From NCBI RefSeq assembly GCF_001613005.1, contig NZ_BDBN01000039.1, forward strand, positions 1 to 64,000: a stretch of 64,000 bases of DNA, given 5' to 3'. The position numbers and the translations under genes are program-made. Below, piece by piece: positions 7,445 through 37,738 of this stretch. The DNA is from Nocardia nova NBRC 15556 (lineage in GTDB: Bacteria > Actinomycetota > Actinomycetes > Mycobacteriales > Mycobacteriaceae). Within the stretch, counting starts at the first letter, position 1; each line of letters begins with the position of its first letter. The notes below the pieces were generated by a model. That model saw nothing but the letters and a program-made list of their open reading frames with translations, had not been told where the DNA came from and ran no database searches.

Positions 7445-9303
7445 TGCGCACCTCCTTGGGCACCGGTGGCGGCCGGTTCGAGACCGGTGTCCGCGGCGGT
7501 GGTGCCGGTGGGACGGAGCCCGGTATCGCGGTCGGTGCCGGGGGCGGCGGGGACGGCGCCCAGGTAGTAGTCCTCCTCGGTGGCGCCCGGATAGGCGGCG
7601 TGCGGCGGGGCGATCATCCCGTCGCCCAGCGGGGCGAGCAGCCGGTCCTTCTCGTAGATCAGATCGGCGCGATTGTCGTCGGCCATCTCGTATTCGTTGG
7701 TCATCGTCAATGCCCGCGTGGGGCACGCCTCGATGCACAGTCCGCAGCCGATGCAGCGCAGATAGTTGATCTGGTAGACGCGGCCGTAGCGCTCGCCGGG
7801 GGAGTAGCGCTCGCTGTCGGTGTTGTCGGCGCCCTCGACGTAGATCGCGTCCGCCGGGCAGGCCCACGCGCACAGTTCGCAGCCGATGCACTTCTCCAGG
7901 CCGTCGGGATGGCGGTTGAGCTGGTGGCGGCCGTGGTAGCGCGGCGCGGTCGGCACCTTCTCCTCGGGGTAGAACTCGGTGTTCTTCTTCTTGAACATCG
8001 TGACGAAGGTGACCCAGAATCCGCCGATGGGTTCCAGCAGACCGGCTTTGGTGGCAGACGGCGCGGTCTCGGGCATCGGCGGCACCGGGAAGTCCGAGAA
8101 CTGTTGCGTCCCAGTGGTTTCCGGTGCGATATTGTCACCGGCACGCCCGGCGCGCAGCATTGTCGCCAGCAGGCCCACCGAGATGATCACGCCGGCGATC
8201 ACGAGGCCCGTGGTCTGCACGTCGTGGCCGTTGTCCTGCACCACCTTCAGCGTCGCCACGATCATCACCCACAGCAGCGACACCGGAATGAGCAACTTCC
8301 AGCCGAGATTCATGAACTGGTCGTAGCGCAACCGCGGCAGCGTCCCGCGCAACCAGATGAAGACGAACAGGAACGTCCAGACCTTCAGCGTGAACCACAG
8401 CAGCGGCCACCAGCCCGAATTCGCGCCGTCCCACAGGTTCAGCGGGAAGGGTGCGTGCCAGCCGCCGAAGAACAGTGTGGTGGCCAGCGCCGAGACGGTG
8501 CCCATGTTGATGTATTCGGCCATCATGAACATCGCGAATTTCAGCGACGAGTATTCGGTGTGGAAACCGCCGACGAGTTCACCCTCGGCTTCGGGGAGAT
8601 CGAAGGGGGCGCGGTTGGTTTCGCCGACCATCGCCACCGCGTAGATGACGAACGACGGCAGCAGCAGCCAAATGTTCCAGGTGCCCCACTGCCGATCCAC
8701 GATGCCGGAGGTGGACATGGTCCCGGCCAGCAGGAACACCGCCGCGAAACAGGCCGCCATCGCGATCTCGTAGGAAATCACCTGCGCGGTCGACCGCAGA
8801 CCACCGAGCAGCGGATACGTCGATCCCGACGACCATCCCGCCAGCACGATGCCGTAGACCCCGATCGAGGTCATCGCGAGGATATAGAGCACCCCCACCG
8901 GCATATCGGTCAACTGCAGCGGTGTGCGGGTGCCGAAGATCGACACCTCCGGTCCGAGCGGTATCACCGCGAACGCCATCACCGCCGGAATCAACGCGAC
9001 GATCGGCGCCAGAATGTAGATGGGCTTGTCGACCATCGCCGGGACGATGTCCTCTTTGAGGAGCATCTTCACCCCGTCGGCGATGGATTGCAGCGAACCG
9101 CGCGGCCCGACCCGATTGGGTCCGACCCGCATCTGCATCCAGGCCACCACCTTGCGCTCGATCACCACCGCGAGCAGCGGGATGAGCAGCAGGAAGATGA
9201 AGATACCGATGGATTTGACCACGACCAGCCACCACGGGTCGTGGCCGAACGCGGACAGATCGGCCGGGGCCGAGACCAGCACAGCCGGTGACATCTCACT
9301 CAT
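7441..9303 (-). CDS. nuoHI: fused NADH-quinone oxidoreductase subunits H and I
   Basis: A single uninterrupted frame of 620 codons encodes two complex I subunits. Residues 1 to about 405 are NuoH, the membrane subunit that forms the quinone channel ([20 protein letters not shown]-type segment, then [17 protein letters not shown]). From about residue 410 the protein is NuoI, the ferredoxin-like subunit with two [4Fe-4S] motifs ([12 protein letters not shown] and [12 protein letters not shown]). These are normally separate genes. An in-frame ATG at 8076 sits where NuoI would start but has no purine-rich site before it, whereas ATG 9303 has GGAGGA seven bases upstream. NuoH would then lack its own stop codon. 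The start overlaps the nuoG end by eight bases. Confidence 0.93.
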
Positions 9304-15205: not shown

Positions 15206-16005
15206 CAGCTGTAGGTCCTCCGCTGGTCCGGCGGCGGAATACGCGCGCCTTTGTACTCGACCGGGATCCCGCCGAGCGGGTAGTCCTTGCGCTGCGGATG
15301 TCCACGCCAGTCATCGGGCATCATGATCCGCGTCAGCGACGGGTGCCCGTCGAAGACGATGCCGAAGAAGTCGTAGGTTTCGCGCTCGTGCCAGTCGGTG
15401 GTCGGATACACCGCGAACAGCGAGGGCATATGCGGATCCGAATCCGGTACCGACACCTCGACCCGCACCCGGCGGTTGTGCGTGATCGACAGCAGGTGAT
15501 AGGCGGCGTGCAGTTCGCGGCCCGTGTCGTCCGGATAGTGCACGCCGTTCACGCCGAGGCACAGTTCGAAGCGCAACGCCGGGTCGTCGCGCAGCGCGCG
15601 CGCCACCTCCACCACCCGTTCCCGCCGCACGTGCAGGGTCAGTTCCCCGGCGAAGACCACGATCTTCTCGATCGCGGCGCGAAATACCTCGTCTCCCACC
15701 GACTGTGCCAGGGCGGCGACCACCTCGTCGAAATAGGAACCGTAGGGCGCGGGGGTGCTGCCGGGCAGCGCGACGGTCCGCACCAGCCGTCCGTACCCGG
15801 AGGTGTCACCGGTGCCCCGGACGCCGAACATGCCGCGACGCACGCCGATGACCTCGTCGTCGGGACGGTCGGGGGAGGGGCCGCGCGATTCGGGTTCGAT
15901 CGCCGGTTCGCCGGCCGGGCCGGAACCGCCCGCGCCGGGGGAGGATTCGGTGTCCGCGGGGCTGTCGTGCGGATCGCCGGCGCTGCGCGGTGCGTCCAGG
16001 CTCAT
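15205..16005 (-). CDS. nuoC: NADH-quinone oxidoreductase subunit C
   Basis: The 30-kDa-type subunit has its signature in the C-terminal half: the [18 protein letters not shown] segment followed by [21 protein letters not shown]. The first 55 residues are a Pro/Gly/Ser/Asp-rich, probably disordered extension. ATG 16005 overlaps the nuoB stop by three to four bases. Total length is 266 residues. Confidence 0.96.
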
Positions 16006-16556
16006 CGCAGCAATCCCTCCATCCGGATCGTGGGGGTGGAGGCGAGCGCGGCGGCCTCGGCCGCGCGCACGGCCTCGGCGCGGTCGACACCCAGCGGCAT
16101 CTGCTGGATCTTCTCGTGCAGTGTCAAGATGGCGTGCAGCAGCATCTCCGGACGCGGTGGGCAACCGGGTAGGTAGATGTCCACGGGCACAACATGATCG
16201 ACACCCTGCACGATGGCGTAGTTGTTGAACATGCCGCCGGAGGAGGCGCAGACCCCCATCGCCAGCACCCATTTGGGTTCGGTCATCTGGTCGTAGACCT
16301 GGCGCAGCACCGGCGCCATCTTCTGGCTGACCCGGCCGGCGACGATCATCAGGTCCGCCTGCCGGGGGGAGGCGCGGAAGACCTCCATCCCGAAGCGGGC
16401 GCTGTCGAAGCGACCGGCTCCCGTGGCCATCATCTCGATCGCGCAGCAGGCCAGCCCGAACGTCGCGGGCCACAGCGAGCCCTTACGCAGGTATCCGGCG
16501 AACTGTTCGACCGTGCTCAGCAGGAAGCCGCTGGGCAATTTCTCCTCGAGCCCCAT
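16002..16556 (-). CDS. nuoB: NADH-quinone oxidoreductase subunit B
   Basis: The 184-residue PSST-type subunit holds cluster N2, the last iron-sulfur centre before quinone. Cysteine motifs are [21 protein letters not shown] and [10 protein letters not shown]. It is separated from nuoA by a 103-bp gap that carries a strong palindrome (see separate entry), the only real gap within this operon. Confidence 0.97.
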
Positions 16557-33140: not shown

Positions 33141-33278
33141 GGCAACAGACTAGCAATACATGCACAAACACGCATGAATTGCCCTCGAGGTGTGCGAGGC
33201 GTCACGCCTCCGTGGTTGTCGGTGGCGAGCCGTAATGTGAGCGCGCGGATCGGCGGGTGTGCGGACGTGGGAGGTGCG

Positions 33279-34433
33279 GTGAAGGTCACATGGGGTCAGG
33301 TGTTCGCGTGGCGATTGCGGCGAGGCTTCGTCGAAGCGCGTGACGGCGGGGATGCGGTCGCGGTGGCGCGGCGACTGGCCGGGGTGCAGGCGCAGGTGAC
33401 GTCCGCCGCGGAGACCGCGGTGGCCGTGCGGCGCGGGGGAGCACCCGGAGAGCTCGTCCGTGCTCTCGACGCCGGCGAGCTGCTGAAGACGTGGGCGATG
33501 CGCGGCACGCTGCACGCGATGACACCCGAGACCGCGGCCGCCGCACTGGCTCTGATCGCCTCGGCGCGCACCTGGGAGAAGCCCGCGTGGCAACGCAATT
33601 TCGGCGCCGACCCCGGGGAAGTGAAGGCGCTGACCGACGCGGTCGCCGAACTGCTCGACGGCGGCGCCGTGCTGAGCCGGACGGAACTGGTCGACGAACT
33701 GGTACGTGACCGCCGCTTCGCGGCGATGGGTGAGCAGTTGCGGTCCGGCTGGGGCGCGCTGTTGAAACCGCTGGCCTGGCAGGGGGTGCTGTGTTACGGG
33801 CCCGCTCGCGGATCATCGGTGACCTTCACCGCCCCGGCGCATGCGGTGAGCGATTGGAGCGGCCTGCCGCCCACCGACATCGCGGCGTCACGCCTGATCC
33901 ACGCCTATCTCGGCGCCTACGGTCCGGGCACGCCGGAGGCGTTCAACGCCTGGCTCATCCGCGGCGTGTTGCGCAAAACCACTGTGCGCCAATGGTTCTC
34001 CGATCTGGGATCCGAACTCACCGAAGTCGATGTCGAGGGCCGCCGGACCTGGATCCGCACCGAGGACGCCGCCGATCTGGCCGCCACCACTCCCACCGAC
34101 AGCGTCCGCCTGCTCGGTCCCTTCGACCAATACGTTCTCGGCCCCGGCACCACGGATCCGGTCCTCCTCCCTCCGGCCCATCGCACGAAGGTCAGCCGGA
34201 CCGCCGGCTGGATCTCGCCCCTGGTCCTCGTCGGTGGCCGGATCGCCGGAACGTGGGAAACCATCGACAACACACTCACCGTGAGCATGTTCGACGACGA
34301 ACATGTCGACTCGGAGCTACTCCGACGCGCAGCAGTCACGACGGCCGAGACAGCTACTACCACCTGGACCTGGACCACAGCGCCGAGCTGCTCGCCGGAG
34401 CCGGGACAGTACTGCACCCGGCCTTGCGAATGA
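33279..34433 (+). CDS. winged-helix DNA-binding (HTH_42/AlkZ-like) protein, 3' end replaced
   Basis: The first 350 residues follow the HTH_42 family (formerly DUF1006): RLAGVQAQVTSAAETAV, WAMRGTLHAMTPE, LLGPFDQYVLGPG and GGRIAGTWE. Related proteins include DNA glycosylases of the AlkZ type, though catalytic identity cannot be claimed. GTG 33279 has GGAGG four bases upstream. After about codon 350 (34328) the DNA is recognisably the linker of an arsR-arsC fusion gene in another frame, so the last 35 residues (Thr/Cys-rich) are alien. The gene is therefore truncated and may be inactive. Confidence 0.8.
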   Translation: MKVTWGQVFAWRLRRGFVEARDGGDAVAVARRLAGVQAQVTSAAETAVAVRRGGAPGELVRALDAGELLKTWAMRGTLHAMTPETAAAALALIASARTWEKPAWQRNFGADPGEVKALTDAVAELLDGGAVLSRTELVDELVRDRRFAAMGEQLRSGWGALLKPLAWQGVLCYGPARGSSVTFTAPAHAVSDWSGLPPTDIAASRLIHAYLGAYGPGTPEAFNAWLIRGVLRKTTVRQWFSDLGSELTEVDVEGRRTWIRTEDAADLAATTPTDSVRLLGPFDQYVLGPGTTDPVLLPPAHRTKVSRTAGWISPLVLVGGRIAGTWETIDNTLTVSMFDDEHVDSELLRRAAVTTAETATTTWTWTTAPSCSPEPGQYCTRPCE

Positions 34434-35023
34434 CGCCCGCGCCCACCGCATTCGAACCCTCGACGCCGTTCGCGGTGCTGTTCGTCTGCACCGGCAACAG
34501 CGCCCGCTCCGCGATCGCCGAAGAGCTGTTGCGCTTGCGCACGGGCGGCCGAGTCGAGGCGTTCAGCGCCGGAAGCAATCCGAAGCCGGTCATGCATACC
34601 GACACGGTGCGAGTGCTGCGGCAGGAGTACGGCATCGACCTGGCCGGCCGCCTTCCCCGCCGCCTCGACACCCTCGCCGATCATCGCTTCGATGCGGTGA
34701 TCACCCTATGCGACAAGGCCCGGGAGGTCTGTCCGGACTTCGGTGACGACCCTCGATGGATCCACTGGAGCATCCCCGACCCGGCGGCCTCACACGGCAG
34801 CGACGACGCCACGTACCCGAGGTTTCAAGCCACGGCCGCCGAAGTTTGTTCATCTCGCCGCGCACCCGCTGCGCTGGCAGTTGCTGACCGAGCTGTCGGA
34901 CAGCGACTATCGCGTGCGAGAGCTGGTGGCCCGCGTGGGCGAGCCACAGAATCTGATCTCCTACCACCTGCGACTACTACGCGACGGTGGCCTCGTCACC
35001 GCCATCCAGGTCTTCGATGTTGA
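34430..35023 (+). pseudogene. ArsC-like low-molecular-weight phosphatase half of an ArsR-ArsC fusion gene
   Basis: The frame upstream of ATG 34430 (from 34328) reads RSSHDGRDSYYHLDLDHSA, the piece that normally links the ArsR helix-turn-helix to ArsC in actinobacterial fusion proteins. From 34430 comes the ArsC domain: LFVCTGNSARSAIAEELL (catalytic Cys20 and Arg of CX5R), LCDKAREVCPDF, and WSIPDPA. Native sequence stops at about residue 138 (TYPRFQATAAE); the next 59 codons are the HTH half read out of frame. ATG overlaps the previous stop (ATGA), so translation is possible, but the protein has lost its N-terminal HTH and its last helix. Confidence 0.75.
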
Positions 35024-35033
35024 GCTGGAGTAG
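34845..35033 (+). pseudogene. ArsR-type helix-turn-helix half of the same fusion gene, displaced downstream
   Basis: The frame reads FVHLAAHPLRWQLLTELSD, then ELVARVGEPQNLISYHLRLL and RDGGLVTA, the complete ArsR-like domain that normally starts this fusion protein. It stops matching exactly at the residue before the RSSHDGRD piece found 0.5 kb upstream, so the two halves are complementary but in swapped order. It has no start codon or ribosome site of its own and ends in nine alien residues. Confidence 0.72.
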
Positions 35034-35180
35034 TTCCTCTGCGCGAGCGCACCAGTGCAGCCATTTGCCGACCGCGGCGCGCCGGGAGTTCCAGGGCGCG
35101 TGAGCGCCCGATCGGGCCGGGCTCGTCGAGGGCGTCGACGGTCTTGACGATCGCGATGGCGTAGGCGCGACGGGTGCTGA
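35003..35180 (-). pseudogene. tyrosine recombinase (phage-type integrase) remnant
   Basis: On the minus strand one frame reads STRRAYAIAIVKTVDALDEP, the core-binding domain start, and a second frame reads PWNSRRAAVGKWLHWCAR followed directly by AEELLQLNIEDLD, which is the beginning of the catalytic domain. The pieces need a frameshift and an internal deletion to be joined, and the catalytic Arg/His/Tyr part is missing. It is a scrap of an integrase from a lost mobile element. Its left end abuts the ArsR half and its right end the permease. Confidence 0.65.
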
Positions 35181-35998
35181 CCCGGGTGATCGTGTCGATC
35201 GTGCTGGCCGTGCTCGCCGCGGTGGTGGTCGCGTCCTCCACCTGCGGCACCGCCGATGCCGCACGGCTGCAATGGGGTTCGGACATCACCGTTGTCGGGG
35301 TGTTGCAGGCAGCGGGACTGCTGTTCTTCGCCTTTGCCGGATACGCGCGCATCGCCACCCTCGGTGAGGAGGTCCGCGACCCCGCCCGCACGATTCCCCG
35401 CGCGATTCCGCTCGCCTTGGGAATCACTTTGCTCGTGTACGCGGTTGTGCTTGTCGCGGCACTGAGCGTGCTCGGGCCGCAAGGATTGTCGGAAACGATC
35501 GCTCCGCTGTCGAGCGTGGTGGCGGCTGCCGGTGTCGGCTGGCTCGAGCCGGTGGTGCGCATCGGAGCCGTGATCGCCGCGCTCGGTTCGCTGCTCGCCC
35601 TGATCCTCGGAGTCTCGCGCACGACGCTGGCGATGGCCCGCGACCGGCATCTACCGCACGCCCTGGCAGCGGTCCATCCCCGATTCGGCGTGCCGCATCA
35701 CGCCGAACTGGCAGTCGGCGCGATCGTCGCCATCGCCGCCGCAACCACCGATGTCCGTGCCGCGATCGGGTTCTCGTCCTTCGGCGTACTGCTCTACTAC
35801 GCGATCGCCAACGCGGCCGCCTGGACACTGACCCCATCCGAGGGCCGACCAGCGCGGCTGATCCCCGTGGTCGGGTTGGTCGGCTGCCTGGTCCTTGCCT
35901 GCACGCTGCCAGCGCTGTCGGTGCTCACCGGCAGCGCGGTCGTTGTGCTCGGCGCCGCGATCTATCTCGTTCGCCGCAGGTCCACCGCGGCGGCGTGA
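35174..35998 (+). pseudogene. amino acid permease (APC family), N terminus missing
   Basis: 274 residues with about seven membrane helices resembling the C-terminal two thirds of an APC-superfamily amino acid transporter: LLFFAFAGYARIATLGEEVR, ARTIPRAIPLALGITLLVYA, and ARDRHLPHALAAVHPRFGVP. The normal first helices with the substrate-binding GxG segment are absent; the frame begins at a junction with the integrase scrap. Although the frame is open, a functional carrier is unlikely. Its 3' end runs into the transposase remnant. Confidence 0.7.
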
Positions 35999-36429
35999 CC
36001 CCCAGCGACACATCGGTGACCAGCAGCGCGTCCAGCTCGCCGCAGCGGGCCGGAGTGAACTCGTAGGCCAGACGGTCGTAGGTCTCGCACTGGGCCTGCG
36101 CACGGGCGTGGGCGATGCGTTCGACCATGCTCACCGGGCCTGGCCGGATCACCCGACTCGGTGGGATGGACCTTCAACTGCTCGGCCAGCCGCGCCACCG
36201 CCACCGGCGGGGCGGTCACCACGCGATCGGGCCCGAACCCCAACCACGGCAGGGTGCACAACGCGATCGCAATCCCGAGCCGATCGGCCGGACCGCGACC
36301 ACGCCCGGGATCGATGAAGGCGGCATCGGCCGGCGACAGGGTGAAGTACCGAAACAGCTCCTCGCGGCTGATCTCCGGGAACTCCCGCAGCCGCGCCAAA
36401 TCCCCATCCGCGAACACCCGCGTTGCCAC
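35986..36429 (-). pseudogene. Tn3-family transposase remnant
   Basis: From GTG 36429 the minus strand reads VATRVFADGDLARLREFPEI, then FRYFTLSPADAAFIDPGRGR and ALCTLPWLGFGPD: the DUF4158 N-terminal domain of Tn3-family TnpA. At about 36150 the homology moves to another frame (VSMVERIAHARAQAQCETYD, ELDALLVTDVSLGVTPPRW) with roughly 60-90 residues missing, then ends at the permease boundary. The DDE catalytic region is absent, so the element is dead. Confidence 0.75.
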
Positions 36430-36540
36430 GAATCCTGAGCTCCGGCACCAACCAATAACGTTGGGAGCCAACCCAACCAGCAACCAGCGATCACCGCAGA
36501 CCGAACCCGTGATTCAGCCTCGGCCAACCGCGGCTACGCC

Positions 36541-36578
36541 ATATCCGTTGTGTTTTCGGCAGTTGCTACCGGGACCCC
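36541..36578. repeat. candidate Tn3-type terminal inverted repeat
   Basis: Read on the minus strand the 38 bases begin GGGGTCCCGGTAGCAACTGC and continue CGAAAACACAACGG, similar in style to the GGGG-starting 38-bp ends of Tn3 elements. It lies 110-150 bp outside the 5' end of the transposase remnant. The opposite end was not found in this window. Confidence 0.4.
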
Positions 36579-36674: not shown

Positions 36675-37634
36675 TCAGATTGCCACGTCTCCCGCGGATT
36701 CGAGCGCGCCGCCGAGCGCCGCCAAGGTTGCCGCGTGCCCCAGGTCCAAGGCGCGCAACAGAACCGCGGAATCGCGGGCGACCCGGCCGATCGTTGGCGC
36801 GCCCAGGGGTGGGCGGATCTGGAGAATCGACGGGTCGGCCGTCATGCGGTGCTCGTCGGCTGCGAATTGCGCGGCGCGGGCGAACCAGCTCTCGGCCACT
36901 TTCGGGCCCGAAGCGCCGAGCGCCCGCGCGACCACGCGCCGTTCGAAATCCGAAGGGACGCTGGGCTTCTCATCGGCCCGCCGGGTGCGCAGCAGCACGA
37001 TGTGGGTGGCGCCCTGGGCGCGGGCGGTGGTGATCGGCACCGATTCGGACAGTCCGGCGTCGACGTAGCGCCCGTCGCCCACCGCCACAGGACGTCCGGC
37101 CAGAACCGGCATGCAGGTGCTGGCGCGCAGCGCGCGCTGCAGGGTGGGGATATCGCTGATGTGTGGGCGCAGATCGACGGCGCTGCCGTCGGCGATATCG
37201 GTGCCGATCGGGTGGAAGGTGACCGCATTGCCGAGGATCGCCGCGAAATCCATCGGGACGACGCGCTCGTACACGGTGTGCACCAGATATCGGGTGTCCA
37301 CGACCCGACCGCCGCGCAACGCCCGGGCCGGGGAGATCACCCGCCGCACCACATCGGAATGCCAGGCGCGCCGTGCCCGCGCCGCTCGCCCGCACAGCAG
37401 CCACGCCCCGTTCAGCGCGCCGGCCGAGGCGCCGTAGACCGCGTCGAAACACCGCAGCACCCCGAGTTCTTCCAGACCGGTCACCATGCCGTGCGAATAG
37501 ACACCGCGCGCCGAGCCACCCTCGATGACCAGGGCCAGGCGGGCCCCATCGCGATGCTCGCCGGCGGCGCTGCCGCGGCGGAAGCGTCGCGCGATCAGCT
37601 CCACCGGACCCGTCGGCTGTGTACTGTCCGGCAT
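36675..37634 (-). CDS. patatin-like phospholipase
   Basis: A 319-residue lipid acyl hydrolase with the Ser-Asp dyad of patatins: the oxyanion motif VIEGGSARGVYSHG, nucleophile in VYGASAGALNGAW, and the aspartate in RYVDAGLSESVP. ATG 37634 is preferred because GGAAGG lies about nine bases upstream; a GTG at 37655 is an alternative. The substrate is probably a phospholipid or neutral lipid at the membrane; the relative of Mycobacterium-type patatins cannot be specified. It marks the right border of the scrambled region. Confidence 0.9.
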   Translation of the reverse strand: MPDSTQPTGPVELIARRFRRGSAAGEHRDGARLALVIEGGSARGVYSHGMVTGLEELGVLRCFDAVYGASAGALNGAWLLCGRAARARRAWHSDVVRRVISPARALRGGRVVDTRYLVHTVYERVVPMDFAAILGNAVTFHPIGTDIADGSAVDLRPHISDIPTLQRALRASTCMPVLAGRPVAVGDGRYVDAGLSESVPITTARAQGATHIVLLRTRRADEKPSVPSDFERRVVARALGASGPKVAESWFARAAQFAADEHRMTADPSILQIRPPLGAPTIGRVARDSAVLLRALDLGHAATLAALGGALESAGDVAI

Positions 37635-37738
37635 CGCACCACACCTTCCGATCACTGCGTTCAGCTCTGTCTATCACGCGGCCGCGGAGGCGTCGTCCGA
37701 CGCCGGGCGGTCGGGGTACACCCGGGTAGGCTGCGCGG

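Follow-up and report, generated by a model that had tools for sequence, protein, structure and literature searches.

Rearranged remains of an ArsR-ArsC fusion gene within an apparent Tn3-family transposon remnant in Nocardia nova

The insertion and its chromosomal site

The window analysed here, a stretch of 64,000 nucleotides from Nocardia nova NBRC 15556 (contig NZ_BDBN01000039.1), contains two parts of an ArsR-ArsC fusion gene (arsRC) in swapped order, the 3' part (B) preceding the 5' part (A). This arsRC block is situated within an insertion of ~2.25 kb (34325-36578), between an AlkZ-like gene and a patatin-like gene, and is followed by fragments of three further genes. From left to right, the features are:

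33228-34324, plus strand: AlkZ-like gene (DNA glycosylase AlkZ-like, PF06224; Pfam 7.6e-43), with no assigned start codon at 33228
34325-34843, plus strand: B, 3' part of an ArsR-ArsC fusion gene (end of the ArsR domain and ArsC domain, up to ...QATAAE)
34844-35004, plus strand: A, 5' part of the same ArsR-ArsC fusion gene (ArsR HTH, ending GGLVTA)
35005-35175, minus strand: tyrosine-recombinase (integrase) gene of Tn3-family elements, in three crumbs (35005-35051, 35047-35095 and 35090 to ~35175)
35175-35998, plus strand: 3' part of an APC-family permease gene, ~274 codons (about two-thirds, depending on the start codon)
35998-36155, minus strand: Tn3-family transposase crumb 1, residues ~171-227
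36156-36578, minus strand: Tn3-family transposase crumb 2 (residues ~14-106) and the surviving terminal inverted repeat
36675-37655, minus strand: patatin-like phospholipase gene, the right flank (PF01734, 2.2e-21)

The AlkZ-like gene matched 108 of the 297 genomes searched, the window's own included, and we compared the site in 30 loci, namely 29 AlkZ loci and that of G297, a genome of the same species. In nine of these (L040-L046, L055 and L115; G297 is among them) the aligned AlkZ-like and patatin-like parts are only 91-206 bp apart; in three others (L048, L049 and L052) the gap is 506-1075 bp, and in 18 of the 30 no patatin-like gene was found within the short flanking stretch compared. 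Because relatives have empty sites, the DNA between the two genes can be recognized as inserted. Identity to G297 is 96.2% and 94.5% in the flanks, and the simplest reading is that the insertion is later than the split from that genome. Alignment to G297 also reveals a loss of ~108 bp of chromosomal sequence where the insertion begins on the left. There the AlkZ-like gene has its 3' end cut off: the last 18 residues of the G297 version are replaced by 35 others, which are the arsRC piece read out of frame (34325-34433, with the stop of this frame ending at 34433).

The two arsRC parts and their breakpoints

As the reference for both parts we used their best intact relative, L069, from a genome (G039) related to that of the window, where 8635-7871 on the minus strand encode an intact 254-codon ArsR-ArsC fusion with HTH_5 and then LMWPc in a single frame. 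At the DNA level, B (34325-34843) aligns with L069 8446-7928 at 93.1% identity over 519 bp (E 0.0), and A (34845-35004) aligns with L069 8605-8446 at 92.5% over 160 bp (E 2.7e-63), levels of identity that support descent from an ArsR-ArsC fusion gene. Pfam detects the LMWPc domain in B (2.6e-15) and the HTH_5 domain in A (1.7e-8). The initial annotation had described an ArsC-bearing piece starting RSSHDGRD ahead of an ArsR piece ending GGLVTA, and had proposed that the two, put in the opposite order, rejoin into one normal fusion gene. Both pieces are located as it claimed, and their alignments to L069 indeed abut, meeting at the same base (8446).

The breakpoint mapping against an intact fusion gene that the annotation had advised placed the left end, the ArsC/ArsR join and the right end to ~1 bp each. 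In a base-by-base display against intact genes, the left end of B falls at 34324/34325 or 34325/34326, B and A meet at 34843/34844, and A stops on the right at 35003/35004 or 35004/35005. The span originally assigned to the block, 34322-35033, does hold both pieces, but the block's limits are 34325 and ~35004, and 35005-35033 belong to the antisense tyrosine-recombinase gene. The two outer arsRC cuts correspond to the same bond of the gene, within 1 bp, and the sequence shared at each of the three joins of the block amounts to 0-1 bp. Microhomology had been considered on account of overlapping BLAST ends (13 bp at the left, 6 bp at the right) and was dropped when the base-by-base display left at most one shared base.

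ArsC does run into ArsR without a spacer, at 34843/34844, as had been stated, but no common frame crosses the join: A and B are in different reading frames, so that no ArsC-ArsR protein results. Both ends of the gene are lost: by L069 coordinates, ArsC lacks ~18 residues at its C-terminus and ArsR ~10 at its N-terminus. In place of an ArsR-type HTH followed in frame by a low-molecular-weight ArsC, the window has both domains swapped and out of frame. The block is a rearranged pseudogene of the ArsR-ArsC fusion family.

A search for the fusion gene in the 297 genomes, which include the window's own, returned 48 places in 47 other genomes. Domain order was counted in 29 of these 48, and a single alignment runs ArsR then ArsC in 29/29 loci (L010-L038); this rules out homologues naturally organized as ArsC-ArsR, the finding that would have spoken against the initial reading. 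Within the window's genome, the intact paralogue that had also been suggested was sought and none was found, nor was any close second copy of A or B (other matches are 31-44% identical), and a search of that genome for the stretch missing between arsRC and the permease gave nothing but a 55-bp match of 79% identity. Among plasmids, one record matches the intact fusion protein and 66 match some part of the window stretch, none over 80% of it. Among the titles and abstract openings screened, none reports a permuted arsRC gene.

We considered whether the joins could be chimeras produced during assembly or library construction. The genome is a draft of 198 contigs; none of the joins is spanned among the matches listed in 148 genomes of the genus, and a 23-mer across the B/A junction occurs 0 times in the genome_contigs set, which may lack records from this genome. 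Against an artefact stand the lack of other close copies of the pieces in this genome, the finding that the three main joins share no more than one base, which should not mislead an assembler, and the right end of the insertion, which is a sensible transposon terminus. We therefore regard an artefact as very improbable.

Remains of a Tn3-family transposon

The right-hand portion of the insertion consists largely of gene debris. The Tn3-family transposase gene is represented by the two crumbs (residues 14-106 and 171-227) and is dead in the window, whereas an intact relative matches the TnpA model NF033527 at 1.5e-243. The region of crumb 2 is 92.8% identical to L117 over 442 bp, and a display of the repeat and its flank places the terminal inverted repeat at ~36530-36578, with chromosome from about 36579 on. 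Only this right-hand repeat (36530-36578) is present, the left one being absent. Tn3-family transposons generate a 5-bp target-site duplication; the left flank that would carry its second copy is deleted in the window. The tyrosine recombinase, too, survives in the window only as crumbs, which have lost internal sequence at 5-6 bp repeats and, in addition, one small segment; an intact relative matches Phage_integrase at 1.4e-10. In Tn3-family transposons of the TnpI type, such a recombinase serves as resolvase and is accompanied by an irs site. The permease part, in turn, is 91.6% identical to L069 9153-9976 and matches AA_permease_2 (Pfam 2.3e-25).

In related elements (L116 and L119 of ~5.5 kb, L121 of ~5.9 kb), this terminal repeat occurs at each end, and tnpA and the recombinase gene run in the same direction. 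On the strength of its crumbs and its one terminus, the insertion is, in our judgement, the remnant of a Tn3-family transposon. Decay of such elements by internal deletion may be common in the genus.

Several other copies of these genes are also fragmentary. In L117 (G101:C67), a related Tn3-family element, ~7.3 kb of other DNA interrupt the recombinase gene at residues ~65-70 (its parts are at 8083-8289 and 15610-16407). The transposase alignment is gapped and in pieces in L120 (G098:C2), L124 (G088:C1) and L126 (G030:C3), as is that of the recombinase in L120. The collapsed recombinase of G098 was examined as a possible shared deletion and taken as independent decay, since the alignment gaps there fall at other positions.

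Orientation and order in the ancestral element

Among the 29 arsRC loci, for which flanks of only 1.5 kb were compared, nine have at least 400 permease residues within reach, and in 9/9 of them the permease is divergent from arsRC. In the window, arsRC and the permease point the same way. Because the two genes are divergent in all nine loci and co-directional here, the arsRC block is inverted with respect to the permease.

The ancestral element probably had the order recombinase(-) VOC(-) arsRC(-) permease(+) tnpA(-), a reconstruction rather than an arrangement that we have seen, which rests on crumbs in two relatives (G038 and G067) and on the window itself. VOC-arsRC of G038 adjoins a 108-bp piece (83% identical) of the stretch upstream of the recombinase gene. 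In G067, a 51-bp piece of tnpA (90%) is located just upstream of arsRC, and a 32-bp piece (91%, E 7e-5) lies on the other side of arsRC, its orientation unsure, with an inverted repeat at that place. None of 13 larger arsRC neighbourhoods has arsRC and the permease inside an intact element with tnpA and recombinase genes. The proposed order is at odds with two weak matches. One, in G028 (L145; E 7e-5), is a 32-bp crumb that resembles the recombinase gene and lies upstream of arsRC; the other consists of Tn3-type transposase pieces (residues ~713-949; E 5e-7) at 3258-3496 of L030 (G069:C55), ~1.2 kb past arsRC on the side of the VOC gene. L154 and L157 contain two additional short crumbs, which are far from arsRC.

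Possible routes to the permuted order

To describe the rearrangement, we divided the locus into the AlkZ flank (a), the recombinase part (c), the two arsRC parts (X and Y), the permease part (P) and the tnpA part (t), such that an ancestor a c X Y P t becomes a -X -Y c P t in the window. When inversion paths were computed on this inferred order, 0/10 single inversions and 1/100 two-step paths gave the order of the window; listing all two-inversion paths shows that the sole one inverts c X and then -c Y. The parts abut because the first inversion uses the X|Y bond for both of its joins. On the inferred order, two overlapping inversions are the minimum, and they need neither a circle nor a duplication. 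With arsRC(-) instead on the left-hand side of the recombinase gene, a pair of separate inversions would suffice (2/100 paths) and would have to use one bond twice; with arsRC in plus orientation to the left of the recombinase gene, 0/100 two-inversion paths lead to the window.

We consider it probable that the locus is a wrecked Tn3-family transposon whose breaks were misjoined, with two overlapping inversions as the most economical path, leaving a dead remnant. A Tn3-family transposon with transposase and tyrosine-recombinase genes and an arsenic cargo (a VOC/glyoxalase gene, the arsRC fusion and a divergent permease, in a full order that we infer) would have landed between the AlkZ-like and patatin-like genes. 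DNA breaks would then have struck the left end of the element, the A|B bond inside arsRC, and sites near both ends of arsRC, and the broken ends would have been misjoined with little or no microhomology. Through the first inversion, one side of a single arsRC break would have become attached to the AlkZ end and the other side to the recombinase gene, at the cost of the element's left end and ~0.1 kb of chromosome, and the second would have joined the end of arsC to the start of arsR. Later deletions would have taken most of what remained of the element, so that only a non-functional remnant was left. No strain with an intermediate stage of the rearrangement was found among the genomes examined.

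The three joins of the arsRC block, with 0-1 bp of homology, have the character of products of non-homologous end joining (NHEJ), and an end-joining pathway is the presumed source; the deletions in the recombinase gene, which came later, use repeats of 5-6 bp. A Ku homologue is encoded in the window's genome (G000, C28; E 1e-50), which speaks to capacity and not to use. End joining could also have acted in a single burst, in which the transposon was shattered and its pieces restitched in shuffled order and orientation, with each break used once. We think such a burst unlikely; if it did occur, it would be a small bacterial counterpart of eukaryotic shattering-and-rejoining events.

The initial annotation was right that one simple deletion is unable to generate the swapped order, and had offered two routes that might. 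One was the integration of an excised circle opened inside the gene. If an arsRC piece of ~680 bp was excised and reinserted, opened at the A|B break, the product would be identical to that of the two inversions, and the sequence cannot separate the two routes. In its fuller form, the fragment would have been excised as a circle (or broken and religated in swapped order), captured at the break at the transposon's left end, and opened at A|B. The junctions are the same as in the inversion model, and the shared bond follows directly; no other copy of arsRC was found in the genome, and the stretch between arsRC and the permease is represented only by the short match described above. Inserts at repair points, some of them from nearby DNA, are described for Streptomyces ambofaciens (PMC5869714). 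On the other hand, a free small molecule would have to survive and be captured. Insertion of a circle by site-specific recombination is further disfavoured in that no core is repeated at both junctions (at most one shared base, at 34325 and 35004), and without a repeated core at the two ends there is no integrase signature. We hold capture of a fragment to be possible, and give it tentative weight.

The other route was that arsRC was duplicated in tandem and that each outer half was then lost independently. It would create the ArsC-to-ArsR join in one step and would require no inferred ancestor for that join. Both deletions, however, must end within 1 bp of each other in a 762-bp gene, which has a chance of 0.39% under uniform breakpoints, and duplication alone leaves the inversion relative to the permease unexplained; we consider this history highly unlikely. 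Reuse of a breakpoint at one bond thus discriminates between histories, as inversions and fragment capture fit it and a duplication with two deletions fits it badly. Taken as a whole, the initial interpretation was sound on the swap and on the exact abutment, and it missed the Tn3-family wreck, the inversion with respect to the permease, and the two-inversion route.

Coding capacity and divergence of the remnant

No function of the permuted gene is indicated. It might nevertheless be supposed that the rearranged DNA works, with an ArsC domain translated from an ATG at 34430, bearing a new tail of ~60 residues, and reducing arsenate. The frame is open from 34430 to 35023, and it matches arsC_pI258_fam at 8.2e-19; this score is below the cut-off of the model, as is that of the intact fusion, which makes the match a neutral point. 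The changes in B that are specific to the window number 6 synonymous and 9 non-synonymous, for a ratio of 0.51 per site. These counts are too few to distinguish constraint from neutrality, and those of the controls spread equally widely (synonymous/non-synonymous, 18/12 for L072 and 1/5 for L071). Moreover, the gene lacks its own start, and out-of-frame sequence has taken the place of its C-terminus. A working ArsC is, in our view, barely credible.

Changes unique to the window were scored against four references for B and A and two for the permease. They amount to 4 synonymous and 1 non-synonymous in A, and to 23 and 12 in the permease part. Most of the divergence in A and in the permease would on this basis be older than the break, and B, with its few counts, is compatible with no constraint.

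Comparison with known systems

The locus adds nothing new on arsenic resistance; its interest is as a clean rearrangement fossil of a known kind of element. It illustrates that what looks like a permuted gene, and might be taken for domain shuffling, can be the wreckage of a transposon, and that such wreckage can give an adjacent gene, in this case the AlkZ-like one, a different C-terminus.

ArsR-ArsC fusion proteins have been reported in Actinobacteria, in ArsC clusters C4 and C7 (PMC6514093). The intact gene of L069 resembles them in having HTH_5 followed by LMWPc in one frame, whereas the gene in the window has been divided, its parts have changed places, and both of its ends are missing. 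The association of arsenic genes with this type of element is reminiscent of plasmid pNF2 of Nocardia farcinica (NC_006363), where a Tn3-family transposase, a site-specific integrase and ars genes are adjacent, although its ars operon has separate arsR and arsC genes and the element is not the same. In pNF2 (L135, 3619-10650), a Tn3-family transposase gene and a short site-specific integrase gene adjoin the ars operon, which comprises arsR, the ACR3 gene arsB, two genes annotated as arsenate reductase ArsC, and a phosphatase-family gene.

The proposed repair scars also have a counterpart. In Streptomyces ambofaciens, according to PMC5869714, induced breaks were repaired with deletions, some clones gained inserts of between 30 bp and 18.8 kb, and break repair in the centre of the chromosome depends on Ku/ligase genes. 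The scars of some clones are like the present locus in combining deletions with fragments inserted at the repair points; they differ in having been induced with I-SceI, the case in the window being natural and reconstructed, and the word 'inversion' does not occur in the main text of that report.

Finally, a parallel for the element itself is provided by the TnpI-type Tn3-family transposons with a tyrosine-recombinase resolvase, Tn4430 and Tn5401 (PMC7157771). The window keeps only one terminus and crumbs, and its recombinase is likened to TnpI by family and not by orthology. The related elements, in contrast, share with Tn4430 and Tn5401 a Tn3-family tnpA, a co-directional tyrosine-recombinase gene, and terminal inverted repeats beginning GGGG.
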